A program made the translations under genes and the position numbers. From Buchnera aphidicola (Chaitophorus populicola) (GTDB taxonomy: Bacteria > Pseudomonadota > Gammaproteobacteria > Enterobacterales > Enterobacteriaceae): a stretch of 64,000 nt of DNA. Below, one piece after another: positions 5,068 to 45,489 of the stretch. The stretch covers positions 248,001-312,000 of the forward strand of contig NZ_OZ060382.1 of the NCBI RefSeq assembly GCF_964058995.1, read 5' to 3'. The notes under the pieces were generated by a model. That model saw nothing but the letters and a program-made list of their open reading frames with translations, made no database searches and had not been told where the DNA came from. How positions within the stretch are numbered: the first letter of the stretch is position 1; every line of letters starts with the position of its first letter.

Positions 5068-7851
5068 ATGAGTAAAAAAAAAATAAATAAAATTAAGGAA
5101 TTATGGATTAATTCTATAAATCAAGAATATTTAGAAAATATTTATAACAAATATTTAAAAAATAAAAATTCTATAGATAAATTATGGAAAAAAAAATTTC
5201 AAAAATTAAATTTTTATTTTTATAATCAAAATATTAATTATAAAAAAGAAAATAATAATAAATACGAAGTCATAAAACATAAAATATATAAAAATTATAC
5301 GTTAAGCTCGAAAAAAATTTTACAAATACTTCATTTTTTTAGAAAGAAAGGTTACAAATATTCTAATATTAATCCTTTAGAAAACTTAAAATATATAAAT
5401 AAAATTAATCAAATCAATGATGCTTTTTTTGATATACCTTCAAAAGATTTATATAAAAAAGTAGTTTTAAAATTTAATAAAAATAAAACACAGAATTTTC
5501 CTGATTTTTTCTCTTTTTTATCTTGGATGAAAAATAAATATTGTAGTACTATAGGTTTTGAATTTAATCATCTTAGTATAAAAAAAGAGAGATTATGGTG
5601 TCAAAATTACATTGAAAAAAAATGGACCAAAAACTTTTTAAATAAAAATAAAAAGTTAGATATATTAAATGCAATTATTTATGCGGAAACTTTTGAAAAT
5701 TATATTAATTCAAAATATCCAGGTTACAAGAGATTTTCTTTAGAAGGTAATGATTCTTTAATTCCTATGTTATATGAAACTATTGTATTTTCTATTAAAA
5801 AAAAAATTAAAAATTTATATATAGGAATGGCTCATAGAGGTAGATTAAATGTATTAATTAATATTTTAGGAAAACCAACTAAAAAATTATTTCAAGAATT
5901 CTCTGGAGATCTTTCAAATTCTATACATACAGGAGATGTTAAATATCATCTTGGTTTTTATACAAAAGTAAGTACAAAATATGGATCAGCATTTTTAAAT
6001 TTAGAATATAATCCTTCACATTTAGAAATTATTAATCCAGTAATAATGGGAATTTCTAGATCTTGTATAGATTCTTCACAATCTTTAAAAAAAAATCAAT
6101 TATTATCTATAATGATTCATGGTGATGCTGCTTTTACTGGGCAAGGAATTACACAAGAAACATTAAATATGTCTCAAACTCCAGGATATACTGTAGGTGG
6201 TTCTCTTCATATTATTATTAATAATCAAATTGGTTTTACTACATCTGATATTAGTCATATACGATCTAGTAAATATTCTACAGATGTTTCTAAAATGATT
6301 GAATCTCCAATTTTTCATGTAAATTCAGATGACCCAGAAGCTGCGATTTTTGCTATTCAAATGGCTATAAAATATAAAATAAAATTCAAAAAAGATGTTT
6401 TTATTGATTTAATTGGTTATAGACGATATGGTCATAACGAATCAGATGAGCCGAATGTTACGCAACCATTAATGTATCAAAAAATAAAATCTCATTCAAC
6501 TATAAGAAGAATATATTCTAAAAAATTAATTAAAGAAGATATAATTAAAAAAGATGATTTTTTAAAAATCATATCCAATTATATAAAACAATTAGATAAC
6601 CAATTAACTATTATTCCAAATTATGATTCTTTACAATTTAAATTACATTCTCACCATAAAAAAATAAAAAATATATCTTTTGATTTACATAAAAAAAAAT
6701 TTTCAAAAAATAAATTATTAAAATTATTTAAAACTATTAATATTTTACCAAAAAAAATTCATGCGCATCCTTTAGTAAAAAAAATTTATATGAATAGAAT
6801 AAATATGATGCAAGAAGAAAATAATATTGATTGGGGTGCTGCAGAAAATTTAGCTTATGCATATTTATTAAGTATAGGAGTATCTTGTCGTATTTCAGGA
6901 GAAGATGTAATACGTGGAACATTTTTTCATCGCCATGCAAAAATATATGATCAAAAAACTAATAATGTTTATACTCCTTTAAAAAAAATTTTAAATGGAA
7001 AATTTTTTATTTGGAATTCTGTTTTATCTGAAGAAGCTGTTTTAGCTTTTGAATACGGATATAGTTTAAGAAATCGAAAGACTTTAAATATTTGGGAAGC
7101 ACAATTTGGAGATTTTGCAAATGTTGCTCAAGTAGTTATTGATCAGTTTATTACTTCTAGTAAAGAAAAATGGAATCAAAGTTCTGGTATAGTTATGTTT
7201 TTACCTCATGGATATGAAGGTCAAGGTCCAGAACATTCTTCTGCTCGAATTGAAAGATATTTACAATTATGTGCAAAGAGGAATATTAAAGTTTGTATAC
7301 CTACTACAGCTGCTCAAATATTTCATTTATTATGTCTACATGTATTTAAAGGAATGAAAAATCCTTTAATTATTTTTTCTCCTAAATCATTATTAAGAAA
7401 TCCTTTATCTAAATCTTCATTTAAAGAATTATATTTAGGGCGATTTAAAAAAGTTATATATGAAAATAATTTATTTAATCAAAAAAAAATTAATAAAATT
7501 ATTTTTTGTTCTGGAAAAATATATTATGAATTGTTAGAGATGTATAATAAATGTCAAAAAACAAATATTCTTTGCATTAAAATAGAACAATTATATCCTT
7601 TTCCAAAAAAAAATATATTAAAAATTTTTCAAGATTATTTTTATGTAAAAAATATTTTTTGGTGTCAAGAAGAACCTAAAAATCAAGGTGCTTGGAATTA
7701 TATTAAAAATATTTTTGATGAAGAAATGTTTGTTAATAATATATCTATTAAATATATTGGAAGAGCTTCTTCAGCTTCTTCTGCTACTGGAAATATACAT
7801 ATACATCAAAAAGAACAATTAAAAATTATTAATTCTATATTTAAGGTATAA
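5068..7851 (+). CDS. sucA: 2-oxoglutarate dehydrogenase E1 component
   Basis: SucA is the thiamine-diphosphate-dependent decarboxylase of the 2-oxoglutarate dehydrogenase complex (2-oxoglutarate to succinyl-CoA). The 927 residues compare with 933 in E. coli. The N terminus contains the helix thought to bind E2 (ELWINSINQEYLENIYNKYL). The substrate/TPP region includes GMAHRGRLNVL, GDAAFTGQGI and NNQIGFTTS, and the pyrimidine-domain part contains WEAQFGDFAN and LPHGYEGQGPEHSSAR. It lies 14 bases upstream of sucB, forming the usual sucAB unit. The remaining TCA genes sdh and sucCD, which flank sucAB in E. coli, are not adjacent here. Confidence 0.97.
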   Translation: MSKKKINKIKELWINSINQEYLENIYNKYLKNKNSIDKLWKKKFQKLNFYFYNQNINYKKENNNKYEVIKHKIYKNYTLSSKKILQILHFFRKKGYKYSNINPLENLKYINKINQINDAFFDIPSKDLYKKVVLKFNKNKTQNFPDFFSFLSWMKNKYCSTIGFEFNHLSIKKERLWCQNYIEKKWTKNFLNKNKKLDILNAIIYAETFENYINSKYPGYKRFSLEGNDSLIPMLYETIVFSIKKKIKNLYIGMAHRGRLNVLINILGKPTKKLFQEFSGDLSNSIHTGDVKYHLGFYTKVSTKYGSAFLNLEYNPSHLEIINPVIMGISRSCIDSSQSLKKNQLLSIMIHGDAAFTGQGITQETLNMSQTPGYTVGGSLHIIINNQIGFTTSDISHIRSSKYSTDVSKMIESPIFHVNSDDPEAAIFAIQMAIKYKIKFKKDVFIDLIGYRRYGHNESDEPNVTQPLMYQKIKSHSTIRRIYSKKLIKEDIIKKDDFLKIISNYIKQLDNQLTIIPNYDSLQFKLHSHHKKIKNISFDLHKKKFSKNKLLKLFKTINILPKKIHAHPLVKKIYMNRINMMQEENNIDWGAAENLAYAYLLSIGVSCRISGEDVIRGTFFHRHAKIYDQKTNNVYTPLKKILNGKFFIWNSVLSEEAVLAFEYGYSLRNRKTLNIWEAQFGDFANVAQVVIDQFITSSKEKWNQSSGIVMFLPHGYEGQGPEHSSARIERYLQLCAKRNIKVCIPTTAAQIFHLLCLHVFKGMKNPLIIFSPKSLLRNPLSKSSFKELYLGRFKKVIYENNLFNQKKINKIIFCSGKIYYELLEMYNKCQKTNILCIKIEQLYPFPKKNILKIFQDYFYVKNIFWCQEEPKNQGAWNYIKNIFDEEMFVNNISIKYIGRASSASSATGNIHIHQKEQLKIINSIFKV

Positions 7852-39495: not shown

Positions 39496-40401
39496 ATGAT
39501 TCCATTTGCAATGATTTTTCCAGGACAAGAAAAACAAAATATTACGCTTTTAAAAAAAATATATAAACAAAATAAGATAATACAAGAAACTTTTGCAAAA
39601 GCTTCAGAACATTTAAAATATGATTTATATAAAACTATTATTAAAAAAAATTTAAATCATAAGTATCAAAAAAATAATTTTCTACAATTAGCAGTGTTAA
39701 CTATTTCTTATTCTATATATAAACTATGGAAATTTCGTATTGGATTAAATCCAAAAATTATGACTGGACATAGTTTAGGACAATATTCTGCATTAGTATG
39801 TAGTAAAGTATTAAAATTTTCTGATGCAATTAAAATGATTATTTATAGAACTAAAATTATGCAGAAAAAAAAAGGTTCAATGTATGCAATTTTTGGTTCT
39901 AAAAAATCAATAATAAAAAAAATTTGTAAAAAATATTCTAAAAAAAGTCGTGTTTCTATAGCTTGTATTAATTCTAAAACACAAATCGTAATTACTGGAA
40001 GTGTAGAAAATTCTAAAAAAGCTTCTCAAGAATTTAAAAAAAATGGAGCTAAAAAAATTATTCAGTTAAAAAATAATACTATTTCTCATTGTCCTTCTAT
40101 GAATAAATTAAAAAAGAAAATATTTTTTAAATTTAAAAAAATAGTTTTTAATTCACCAAAAAATTTAATTATAGATAGCACAGAAGTAAAATTTTTAAAA
40201 AATCCAATAAAAATTAAAAATTGTCTAATAAATCAATTATGTAAAACTGTTAAATGGAATGATACAATTAATTTTATCATAAATAATAAAATAAAACATT
40301 TTTTAGAAATTAGTTTAAACAATACATTAACTCAATTACATAAAAATAAAAAAAAATATATACCTCTTTATATTAAAAAAATTCTTAATTTAAAATTATA
40401 G
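39496..40401 (+). CDS. fabD: Malonyl-CoA:ACP transacylase
   Basis: FabD loads malonate onto acyl carrier protein for fatty-acid elongation. The 301 residues (309 in E. coli) have the nucleophile in MTGHSLGQYSALVCS (Ser near 92), the Arg in IYRTKIMQ, the catalytic His in TISHCPSM, and an N-terminal FPGQEKQ with the oxyanion Gln. The family's usual FPGQGSQ has changed at two positions after that Gln. It lies 44 bases after rpmF and 22 before fabG. fabH, which lies between rpmF and fabD in E. coli, is missing. Confidence 0.95.
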   Translation: MIPFAMIFPGQEKQNITLLKKIYKQNKIIQETFAKASEHLKYDLYKTIIKKNLNHKYQKNNFLQLAVLTISYSIYKLWKFRIGLNPKIMTGHSLGQYSALVCSKVLKFSDAIKMIIYRTKIMQKKKGSMYAIFGSKKSIIKKICKKYSKKSRVSIACINSKTQIVITGSVENSKKASQEFKKNGAKKIIQLKNNTISHCPSMNKLKKKIFFKFKKIVFNSPKNLIIDSTEVKFLKNPIKIKNCLINQLCKTVKWNDTINFIINNKIKHFLEISLNNTLTQLHKNKKKYIPLYIKKILNLKL

Positions 40402-41574: not shown

Positions 41575-42207
41575 ATGAAAAAAAATAAATTTATTGTAAT
41601 AGAAGGTTTAGAAGGATCTGGCAAAACAACTGCCTGCCAAATCATAAAAAAAATTCTTTTATCACATAATATAAAAAAAATAATTATTGTTAGACAGCCA
41701 GGAAGCACATTAATTTCTGAAAAAATTCGTTCAATTATTAAGAAAGATTATAAAACAGAAAAGTTAAATAAATTTTCTGAATTGTTTCTATTATATTCTG
41801 CACGTTTTCAACTGATGGAAAATATTATTAAACCATCTTTAAAAAAAGGAGTTTGGATTATTTCAGATCGTCATAATTTATCTTCTATAGCATATCAAGG
41901 AGGTGGAAGAAATATTGATCAATCTCTAATACAAATGTTAAATAATCTTATAAATAAAATTTCTAAGCCTGATTTGACGATCTTTCTTGATGTTTCAGTA
42001 GAAATCGGCCTAAAAAGAGCTCTATTACGTTCTAATTTTGACAGAATAGAAAAACAATCTAAAAAATTTTTTTTAAAAGTAAGAAAATATTATTTTAAAT
42101 TTTTACTATCTGAAAAAAATAAAATTATAATTAACGCAAATAATAATATTAAAGTAATGAAAGAAAATATAAAAAATCAATTAAATACTTGGATAAACAA
42201 AAATTAA
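41575..42207 (+). CDS. tmk: Thymidylate kinase
   Basis: Tmk phosphorylates dTMP to dTDP for DNA synthesis. The 210 residues (213 in E. coli) show the P-loop IEGLEGSGKTTACQ at residues 9-22, the DR(H/Y) motif ISDRHNLSSIAYQGGGR and the lid-region Arg residues (ALLRSNFDRIE). Its TAA stop overlaps the ATG of holB by one base (TAATG), indicating translational coupling. In E. coli pabC and yceG precede tmk; both are missing. Confidence 0.96.
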   Translation: MKKNKFIVIEGLEGSGKTTACQIIKKILLSHNIKKIIIVRQPGSTLISEKIRSIIKKDYKTEKLNKFSELFLLYSARFQLMENIIKPSLKKGVWIISDRHNLSSIAYQGGGRNIDQSLIQMLNNLINKISKPDLTIFLDVSVEIGLKRALLRSNFDRIEKQSKKFFLKVRKYYFKFLLSEKNKIIINANNNIKVMKENIKNQLNTWINKN

Positions 42208-43190
42208 TGAAAAAATATCCATGGCTTTATAAAATATATAAAAAAATTATTAGTCAATATTTAAACAAAAATAATCATCATACAATTCTTATACAATCTC
42301 AAATCAATCTTGGATCTTCTAAACTAATTTTAAATATATGTAAAAAAATTTTGTGTCAAAAATCAAATAATTTATTTAGTTGTAATATATGTCATAATTG
42401 TCAATTAATTAAAAAAAAAAATTACTTAGATTTATATATTATTAAAAAAGAAGAAAAAAAAAAATTTATTGGAATTAATACAATTTTAAATTGTATAGAT
42501 AAAATAAATCATACCTCTCAATTAGGATCTATGAAAATAATTTGGATTCCTAAAATTCATTTATTAACTGAATCAGCTATTAATTCTTTATTAAAAGTTT
42601 TAGAAGAACCTCCTTTAAATACATTATTTTTTTTAGAAAATAAAAATAATTTTAAATTAAAAAAAACATTAAAAAGCAGATGTATAATTTATAATATATT
42701 TCCTCCTAAAAATAAAGATAGTGTTTTATGGTTAAAGAAAAACATTAAAAAAAAATATAAATTAGAAGAATTATTGATAGCATTAAATATATCAGAAAAT
42801 TCTCCTATATTAGCAAAAAAAATTTTTATTAATAAAATTTGGGAAGAAAGAAAAAAGTTATTTAGAAAAATATATAAAGCAATAAAATATAAAAATTTAT
42901 TTTTATTATATAAAAATTTAAAAATACATTTATTAAAAAAAATTTCCTGGATATGTTCGTTAATTTTAGATGCAATTAAATATTCTTATAATAAAAATAT
43001 TAAATTAATAAATATTGATCAAAAAAAATTAATTTACACAATAAACAAAAAAAATTCAAAAAAAAATTTATTTATAATAATTCATATATGGATTAAATGT
43101 TTTTTTAACATAAAAAACATCCCTCAAGTAAATGAACATTTTATTTTATTAGAACCTTTAATTCAATGGGAAAAAATGCTTAATTTTTAA
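42207..43190 (+). CDS. holB: DNA polymerase III delta-prime subunit
   Basis: HolB is the delta-prime subunit of the clamp-loader complex. I use the ATG at 42207 that overlaps the tmk stop; the protein then starts MKKYPWLYKIY as E. coli HolB starts MRWYPWLRPDF, giving 327 residues (334 in E. coli). A TTG 18 bases earlier in frame has no supporting site. The zinc-binding Cys cluster (CQKSNNLFSCNICHNC) and the clamp-loader motif LLKVLEEPP are present, while the ATP-binding P-loop is absent as is normal for delta-prime. The C-terminal half is strongly drifted. Confidence 0.93.
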   Translation: MKKYPWLYKIYKKIISQYLNKNNHHTILIQSQINLGSSKLILNICKKILCQKSNNLFSCNICHNCQLIKKKNYLDLYIIKKEEKKKFIGINTILNCIDKINHTSQLGSMKIIWIPKIHLLTESAINSLLKVLEEPPLNTLFFLENKNNFKLKKTLKSRCIIYNIFPPKNKDSVLWLKKNIKKKYKLEELLIALNISENSPILAKKIFINKIWEERKKLFRKIYKAIKYKNLFLLYKNLKIHLLKKISWICSLILDAIKYSYNKNIKLINIDQKKLIYTINKKNSKKNLFIIIHIWIKCFFNIKNIPQVNEHFILLEPLIQWEKMLNF

Positions 43191-43223
43191 AAATAATTTA
43201 ATTATATAAAAAGGAAAAAATAT

Positions 43224-44008
43224 ATGTTTTTAATAGATTCACATTGTCATTTAGATAAAATTAATTTAAATAAATTTAAAAATGGATTAGATGATGTGTT
43301 AAATAAAGCATATTCAAAAAATGTTAAAATAATTTTAGCAGTATCTACTTCTATAAATAATTTTAAAGATATTCAAAAAAAATTTAAAAATACGAAATAC
43401 AATATTTATTATTCATGCGGTATACATCCGTTATCTATTTATAAAAAAAAAAATCTTTTAAATTAGTAAAAAATTTATCTCAAGATCAAAAAGTAATTGC
43501 TATAGGCGAAACAGGATTAGATTATTATTATCAAAAAGAAAACTTTAAAGAACAAATTAATTTATTTTATAAACATATTTATCTTAGCAAAAAACTGAAT
43601 AAACCATTAATTATTCATTCTAGAAACGCAAATATAGATACAATAAAAATTCTTCGATCAGAAAAATCTGACCAATGTAAAGGTGTTTTACATTCATTTA
43701 ATTATGACTTTCAAACAGCATCAAAATTATTAGATATGGGATTTTATATATCTATTTCAGGAATTTTTACATTTAAAAATTCTATAAAACTACGTTCTGT
43801 TATAAAAAAAATACCTTTAAATAGAATATTATTAGAAACAGATTCTCCATATTTAACACCATTCCCTCATCGAGGAAAAGAAAATCAACCTTCTTATATA
43901 TATTATATAGCAAAATACCTCTCTAATTTAATTAAAATAGATTTAGAGGAATTAAGCTATATTACATCAAAAAATTTTTTTAAATTATTTAATTTAAAAG
44001 AAAAATAA
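43224..44008 (+). pseudogene. ycfH: TatD-family metal-dependent hydrolase YcfH, frameshifted at an A11 tract
   Basis: The first 80 codons (MFLIDSHCHLDKINL, CGIHPLSIYKKK) stop at TAG 43464 just after eleven A residues at 43443-43453. From 43454 a second frame runs without interruption to 44008 and matches the rest of E. coli YcfH: GETGLDYYYQKENF, LNKPLIIHSRNA, LLETDSPYLTPFPHRGKEN. All metal-ligand motifs of the TatD family are preserved over both parts, and the second part shows no further damage. One extra A (or two fewer) in the tract restores a 262-residue protein. It may be a fresh pseudogene, a sequencing error or a gene rescued by polymerase slippage. It lies 33 bases after holB and 47 before ptsG. 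Confidence 0.9.
43443..43453 (+). repeat. A11 homopolymer at the ycfH frameshift
   Basis: Eleven consecutive A residues mark the exact point where the ycfH frame changes. Twelve A residues would make the whole gene continuous. Confidence 0.95.
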
Positions 44009-44055: not shown

Positions 44056-45489
44056 ATGTTTCAAAATACATTCGCTAATCTTCAAAAAATTGGAAAATCT
44101 TTAATGCTTCCAGTTTCAGTATTACCTATTGCTGGTATTTTATTAGGAATTGGATCAGCTCATTTTTATATTATTCCTCATTTTATTTCAGAAATTATGG
44201 AAAATACTGGAGGAACAATTTTTAAAAACATGCCGTTAATTTTTTCTATTGGTGTTGCTTTAGGATTTACTAAAAATGATGGAGTAGCAGCTTTAGCTGC
44301 AGTAATTTCATACAATATTATGACTAAAACATCTTCTATCATGTTACCAGTTTTTTCTTCTTATTCATTATTTTCTTTGCAAGATAATATAAAAAATATA
44401 AATGACACAGGAATTTTAGGAGGTATTTGTTCTGGAGCCATTTCTGCGTTTATGTTTAATAAATTTTATAAAATACAATTACCAGAATATTTAGGATTTT
44501 TTTCTGGTAAAAGATTTATACCTATTATCTCCGGTCTATCCGCTATAATGTTAGGTCTTTGGTTATCTTTAATTTGGCCTCCAATAGGATTTGTTATACA
44601 AAAATTTTCAATGTGGTCTGCTTATCAAAATCCAATTATTGCTTTTGGAATATATGGATTTGTAGAAAGAGCATTAGTACCTTTTGGATTACATCATATT
44701 TGGAATGTTCCCTTTCAAATGCAAATTGGAGAGTATATTAATAATATAGGACAAGTATTTCATGGAGATATAGCTAGATATATGGCAGGTGATTCAAGTG
44801 CAGGAAAATTATCTGGAGGATTTATTTTTAAAATGTATGGATTACCTGGAGCAGCATTTGCTATTTGGCATTGTTCTAAAAATAAAAATAAAAAAAAAGT
44901 TAGTGGAATTATGATGTCTGCTGCTTTAACTGCATTTTTAACAGGAATTACTGAACCAATTGAATTTTCTTTTCTTTTTATTTCGCCTATTTTATATTTT
45001 ATACATTCAATATTAGCTGGATTATCTTTTTCCATATGTATTTTTTTAAACATGCAAGCTGGAACTAGTTTTTCGCATGGATTAGTTGATTTTATTTTAT
45101 TAAGTGGAAACAGTAATAGAATATGGTTATTTCCTATAGTTGGAATTATATATTTTTTTATATACTATATAATTTTTTATATTTTTATTACAAAATTTAA
45201 TTTAAAAACTCTAGGACGAACAAATAATGTTTTTCATAAATCTTATATAGATATCGATGAAAAAATTTCTAAAATAATAAAATATTTAGGTGGAAAAGAA
45301 AATATAGTTAATATAGACGCTTGTATTACACGGTTAAGAATAACAGTTATAAATTCTTCTAAAATAAATGCAAATAAACTAAAATCTCTAGGAGCTGCAG
45401 GGGTATTTATTTCTGGTTTAGGTGTACAAATTGTATTTGGAACTAAATCTGATAGTATTAAAAATTTAATTGAAAAAAAAATAAAATAA
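44056..45489 (+). CDS. ptsG: Glucose-specific PTS enzyme IICB
   Basis: PtsG imports and phosphorylates glucose using phosphate from EIIA(Glc). The 477 residues equal E. coli PtsG. The N-terminal IIC part spans about residues 1-385 with eight or more hydrophobic segments and the substrate-binding GITEPIEF. The IIB domain at the C terminus has the phosphorylated Cys in [11 protein letters not shown]. Its partners crr, ptsH and ptsI are outside the window. It lies 47 bases after ycfH, the enterobacterial order, and is the entry point for the glycolytic enzymes in this window. Confidence 0.97.

Follow-up and report, generated by a model that had tools for sequence, protein, structure and literature searches.

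A frame-broken but apparently still used ycfH in Buchnera of Chaitophorus populicola, with recurrent poly(A) splits of the gene in related small genomes

The window analyzed here is a 64-kb portion of the 474,096-bp genome of Buchnera aphidicola (Chaitophorus populicola), which is genome G000 in our comparisons. Between holB and ptsG, positions 43224-44008 are occupied by ycfH, which is divided over two reading frames at an A11 tract:

42189..43190, forward strand: holB, intact upstream neighbor, given for context (Pfam, NCBIfam)
43210..43215, forward strand: Shine-Dalgarno-like AAAGGA of ycfH, 8 nt 5' of the ATG (sequence)
43224..43466, forward strand: N part of ycfH, 80 codons and TAG (ORF reading, Pfam, NCBIfam)
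43443..43453, forward strand: A11 tract, candidate slippage site (sequence; seven homologous split tracts)
43464..43466, forward strand: premature TAG in the upstream frame of ycfH (translation)
43445..44008, forward strand: C part of ycfH, read in the -1 frame and ending at the natural TAA, 44006-44008 (translation, Pfam, NCBIfam, structure match)
44056..45489, forward strand: ptsG, intact downstream neighbor, given for context (Pfam, NCBIfam)

In the 0 frame, the tract reads TAT AAA AAA AAA AAT, one A below the in-frame count. Downstream of it, the sole open frame is -1, which extends from immediately after a TAA (43442-43444) to the natural TAA, and the remaining two frames are stop-rich in translation. 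A preliminary description of this DNA had 80 codons ending in TAG after eleven A residues and the remainder intact in the next frame, and both points hold at exactly these coordinates. The 262-residue product that it proposed is corrected by arithmetic on the coordinates, which give a restored YcfH of 261 residues with 12 A or 260 with 9 A.

The two parts jointly cover the full-length TatD family profile: in Pfam, the N part matches positions 1-69 of TatD_DNase (PF01026; E 6e-12) and the C part positions 75-253 (E 6e-62). The top NCBIfam model for both is PRK10812 (YcfH-type hydrolase), whose whole-gene cut-off neither half reaches alone. Among solved structures, the C part is closest to E. 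coli YcfH (PDB 1YIX, E 2.5e-58); the Buchnera gene resembles it in that its parts together cover the TatD profile and differs in being coded in two frames. An HxH metal motif (DSHCH) lies on the N part, with His codons at 43242-43244 and 43248-43250, and the C part carries four further TatD-site residues, read from the sequence:

43508-43510, forward strand: Glu
43616-43618, forward strand: His
43691-43693, forward strand: His
43841-43843, forward strand: Asp

HxH, E, H, H, and D are what we take to be the metal ligands of the TatD family, and because they are divided between the N and C parts, neither part alone would be an enzyme. By profile and ligands, the product is a TatD/YcfH metal-dependent hydrolase with predicted nuclease or hydrolase activity. 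When the G000 genome was searched with the TatD profile, no second TatD-type gene was found and only the two ycfH pieces matched; a paralogue making ycfH redundant is thus rejected.

To place the split in context, we compared 11 genomes from a single genus of the Buchnera type, all of which have ycfH and among which the closest named relative is Buchnera aphidicola of Chaitophorus viminalis (89% identity over the C part). In 7/11 genomes, ycfH is broken in the homologous poly(A) tract, which follows an HPL motif, and each tract is one base below the in-frame length: A11 in G000, G004, and G008; A10 then C in G003 and G009; A13 in G007; and A14 in G002. The four intact copies have interrupted runs (G001, G006), no long run (G005), or an uninterrupted A15 that is in frame (G010). 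On a tree of 12 neighboring proteins (4446 columns, with low support at some deep nodes), the split G002 groups with intact genomes, namely its sister G001 (93% identical protein) and, as the next closest, G006 and G010. By parsimony, the best tree requires three changes and the most favorable alternative at least two, some deep nodes being weakly supported. The A11 split of G000, G004, and G008 was most likely inherited in common.

Splits of ycfH also occur beyond this genus. Within genus g11 (16 small genomes), the gene is split in G082, G084, and G091 at a different A11, approximately 13 codons further on, and another 59 small genomes from the family yielded splits in G177 (A11), G258 and G392 (A10), and G241 (A11), at three other tracts that all lie within the gene's first third. 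The splits in four other small-genome genera (L237, L238, L239, L240, L171-L173) fall at four further poly(A) sites, each one base short. In total, ycfH is split in 14 of the roughly 85 small-genome relatives having the gene, at five tracts and through at least six events, and every split site is a run of 10 or more A. The small genomes G016, G213, and G157, which belong to the same family, gave no TatD-family match, and ycfH may have been lost from them.

For eight genomes, the survey of frame breakage in general took in roughly 64 kb surrounding ycfH, and for three more it took in 18-20 kb; its design is blind to shifts in approximately the outermost 15 codons at either end of a gene. The 426 conserved ORFs surveyed include 507 coding A runs (length 10 and above) that stay in frame, and the nine frameshifts found, all in the same direction, comprise seven in ycfH, one in fabD (G010), and one in sucA (G007). 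Within the surveyed stretches, ycfH breakage is above the general breakage rate. This distribution bears on sequencing or assembly error, homopolymer length being a classic source of it, and on the suggestion in the preliminary description that the true tract in the DNA could have 12 A. Random tract error would strike other genes far more often, whereas only two other genes are shifted against hundreds of long tracts in frame, and the same one-base-short state is seen in seven genus genomes and at four further sites; a true genome with 12 A is therefore extremely improbable.

The dN/dS of the second part in relatives, a comparison that the preliminary description had proposed, is 0.21, 0.16, and 0.32 among the three genomes with the shared A11 (89-91% identity). 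This range (0.16-0.32) can be set against 45 intact genes from the window, whose medians between G000 and G004 are 0.28 for dN/dS and 83% for identity; in the other two pairs, the intact-gene medians are 0.33-0.35 and 80-84%. Substitutions in the C part favor third codon positions, the counts at first, second, and third positions being 14, 4, and 28; 13, 6, and 25; and 15, 4, and 18 for the three pairs. The N part is also constrained in these genomes (dN/dS 0.34-0.48, identity 84-86%), and purifying selection acts on both halves of ycfH after the shift.

We also simulated neutral evolution of the C part with the 4-fold-site composition of this genome. At 0.09 substitutions per site, the mean was 4.9 stops and 0.5% of runs were stop-free, and at 0.27 per site, which is the synonymous divergence between two genomes sharing the split, the mean was 12 stops and 0/2000 runs remained open. 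An open C frame by chance is rejected by this simulation, in which an unselected frame gains stops quickly, as the preliminary description expected. Homopolymer frameshifts are a normal first step of symbiont gene loss (PMC3017870), and ycfH goes undetected in the three family genomes named above, so the gene could be imagined as a recent pseudogene whose decay is still to come. Such recent loss is very unlikely, as the same split is common to genomes only 80-84% identical in protein, C-part dN/dS is at or below that of intact genes, and the expected stops are absent; for the shared splits, it is already contradicted.

In 6/7 split genomes, the C frame is closed by a stop immediately before the tract, and from this stop to the catalytic Glu it contains neither ATG nor GTG nor TTG. 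With no start codon before this residue, the C part would not be made alone by ordinary initiation, which leaves frame restoration at the A tract as the remaining simple route. The exception is G002, whose C frame includes an ATG 5' of the tract; this ATG, together with the conservation of both halves, is what a two-piece enzyme would predict, with N and C fragments translated apart and then assembling. The other six split genomes, however, offer only rare ATT/ATA/ATC codons in this interval, and we consider this arrangement highly improbable. Taken together, the conserved split, the selection on both parts, the C part without a start, and the failure to find another TatD-type gene in G000 strongly support the view that ycfH is still used, with its frame restored in expression.

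We consider it likely that ycfH is a working gene whose frame was broken by the loss of one A and is restored in expression, most likely by RNA polymerase slippage. Loss of one A from the poly(A) run would have broken the frame in the DNA; RNA polymerase would then add one A (or drop two) at the A11 in a share of transcripts, such that slipped mRNAs would yield the complete metal hydrolase of the TatD family (261 or 260 residues) and unslipped mRNAs an 80-residue dead fragment. We infer all three elements, namely frame restoration as such, RNA polymerase as its agent, and the yield. Polymerase slippage is favored on two grounds. Bases inserted during transcription in Buchnera mostly come one at a time in A/T runs, at a rate that grows exponentially as the run lengthens, up to 11 (PMC5574713), and Tamas 2008, as cited in PMC5009743, reportedly found 12-50% of the transcripts of frameshifted Buchnera and Blochmannia genes to be corrected. 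As a counterpoint, no frame-restoring transcription error was seen in the former study (PMC5574713). Of the slippage proposed in the preliminary description, the continued use of the gene and the restoration of its frame stand on comparative evidence; the RNA polymerase step is most likely, but a -1 shift by the ribosome on A_AAA_AAA would lead to an identical product.

In ribosomal frameshifting, paired lysine tRNAs would slip back one base on the heptamer and produce the same fusion protein from an unedited mRNA. The slippery heptamer is in phase in the 0 frame of the window, with the needed -1 direction, and an in-phase heptamer is kept at all split sites (as A_AAA_AAG in three g11 genomes). 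Against this, the 60 nt 3' of the tract form no stable structure in the window (z +0.6) or in 4/5 relatives (z range +1.8 to -0.9), and no upstream Shine-Dalgarno-like stimulator was found before the window tract. The tracts are also 10-14 A long where 7 would do, although this is a weak point, long tracts also being where indels arise. There is no shared RNA stimulator among the genomes folded, which lowers the ribosomal route, and we regard it as rather unlikely. In G003, the 60 nt 3' of the tract (L046 1509-1568) fold strongly (z -3.1), a possible lineage-specific frameshift stimulator.

In-frame templates might also be supplied by the DNA itself, if tract length differs between cells or between copies of the chromosome and those in frame provide the enzyme. 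Long A tracts mutate fast and Buchnera is polyploid, both of which would suit such a mixture, but the consensus is one base short in all seven genomes, which is unexpected for a freely drifting tract, and we think a mixture very improbable.

The split is tolerated, probably since a small amount of YcfH suffices. Tolerance alone leaves unexplained the long non-reversion to an in-frame length in G000/G004/G008 and in G003/G009. The ycfH tract is unchanged in length within each of these groups, in which 12/41 and 3/22 of the other tracts of at least ten A, respectively, are of equal length; as a sign of selection, this constancy is only suggestive, since intact genes can change only by threes. 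An alternative is that the split is favored for the dose or timing of ycfH, with slippage-limited nuclease output being beneficial and kept convergently in several symbiont lineages. We think this quite unlikely; if true, separate lineages would have converged on polymerase error as a means of regulation, each time within the first third of this one gene.

Slippage rescue of poly(A)-frameshifted genes is established in Buchnera and Blochmannia, as reported by Tamas et al. (2008, in PNAS) and Wernegreen et al. (2010, in MBE), and the preliminary description likewise took this mechanism class as known. Like those genes, ycfH is shifted by an indel of a single base within a coding poly(A) run at least about 10 long, has flanks that are intact and under selection, and shares its split between species; unlike them, it has been struck repeatedly in separate lineages at five tracts, as seen here at the DNA level. 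Blochmannia genomes carry 4-8 poly(A)-broken genes each (PMC3017870, PMC4389277), and poly(A)-split genes in the Buchnera of Myzus persicae, which share with ycfH a two-frame reading across the tract and conserved flanks, were merged by curators (PMC3890641). A further likeness is found in Thermus dnaX, Shigella mxiE, and Citrobacter tssM, where frames are joined or split when RNA polymerase slips on runs of the A9/T9 type (PMC1088944, PMC4256274), with the difference that dnaX has two useful products, whereas for ycfH only the full-length protein is likely to be useful. Our literature search found no paper on ycfH as a slippage-rescued poly(A) case; the rescue belongs to a known mechanism class, and the recurrence in ycfH looks new.

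The gene is among 120 retained in all 34 sampled Enterobacteriaceae endosymbionts and is not ancestrally essential in free-living relatives (PMC11481867). It is thus universally retained and yet the most often frame-broken gene of the surveyed stretch, with separate events at five tracts. The combination of split and intact sister genomes with varied tract lengths provides a natural series for the efficiency of slippage rescue, which bears on why one gene tolerates breaks so often and on whether lower output is neutral or useful. It also calls for caution in that such split genes should not be counted as lost in symbiont genomes.

The two remaining frameshifts of the survey lie in genes whose homologues in the window are as follows:

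5068-7851, forward strand: sucA (2-oxoglutarate dehydrogenase E1)
39496-40401, forward strand: fabD

The sucA homologue of G007 (L265) has a one-base-short shift, backed by a single query only, near the N terminus in an A-rich stretch with runs of 18 and 14 A. The fabD of G010 (L169, around 6826) is one base short at an A11 and is intact in the other ten surveyed genomes.
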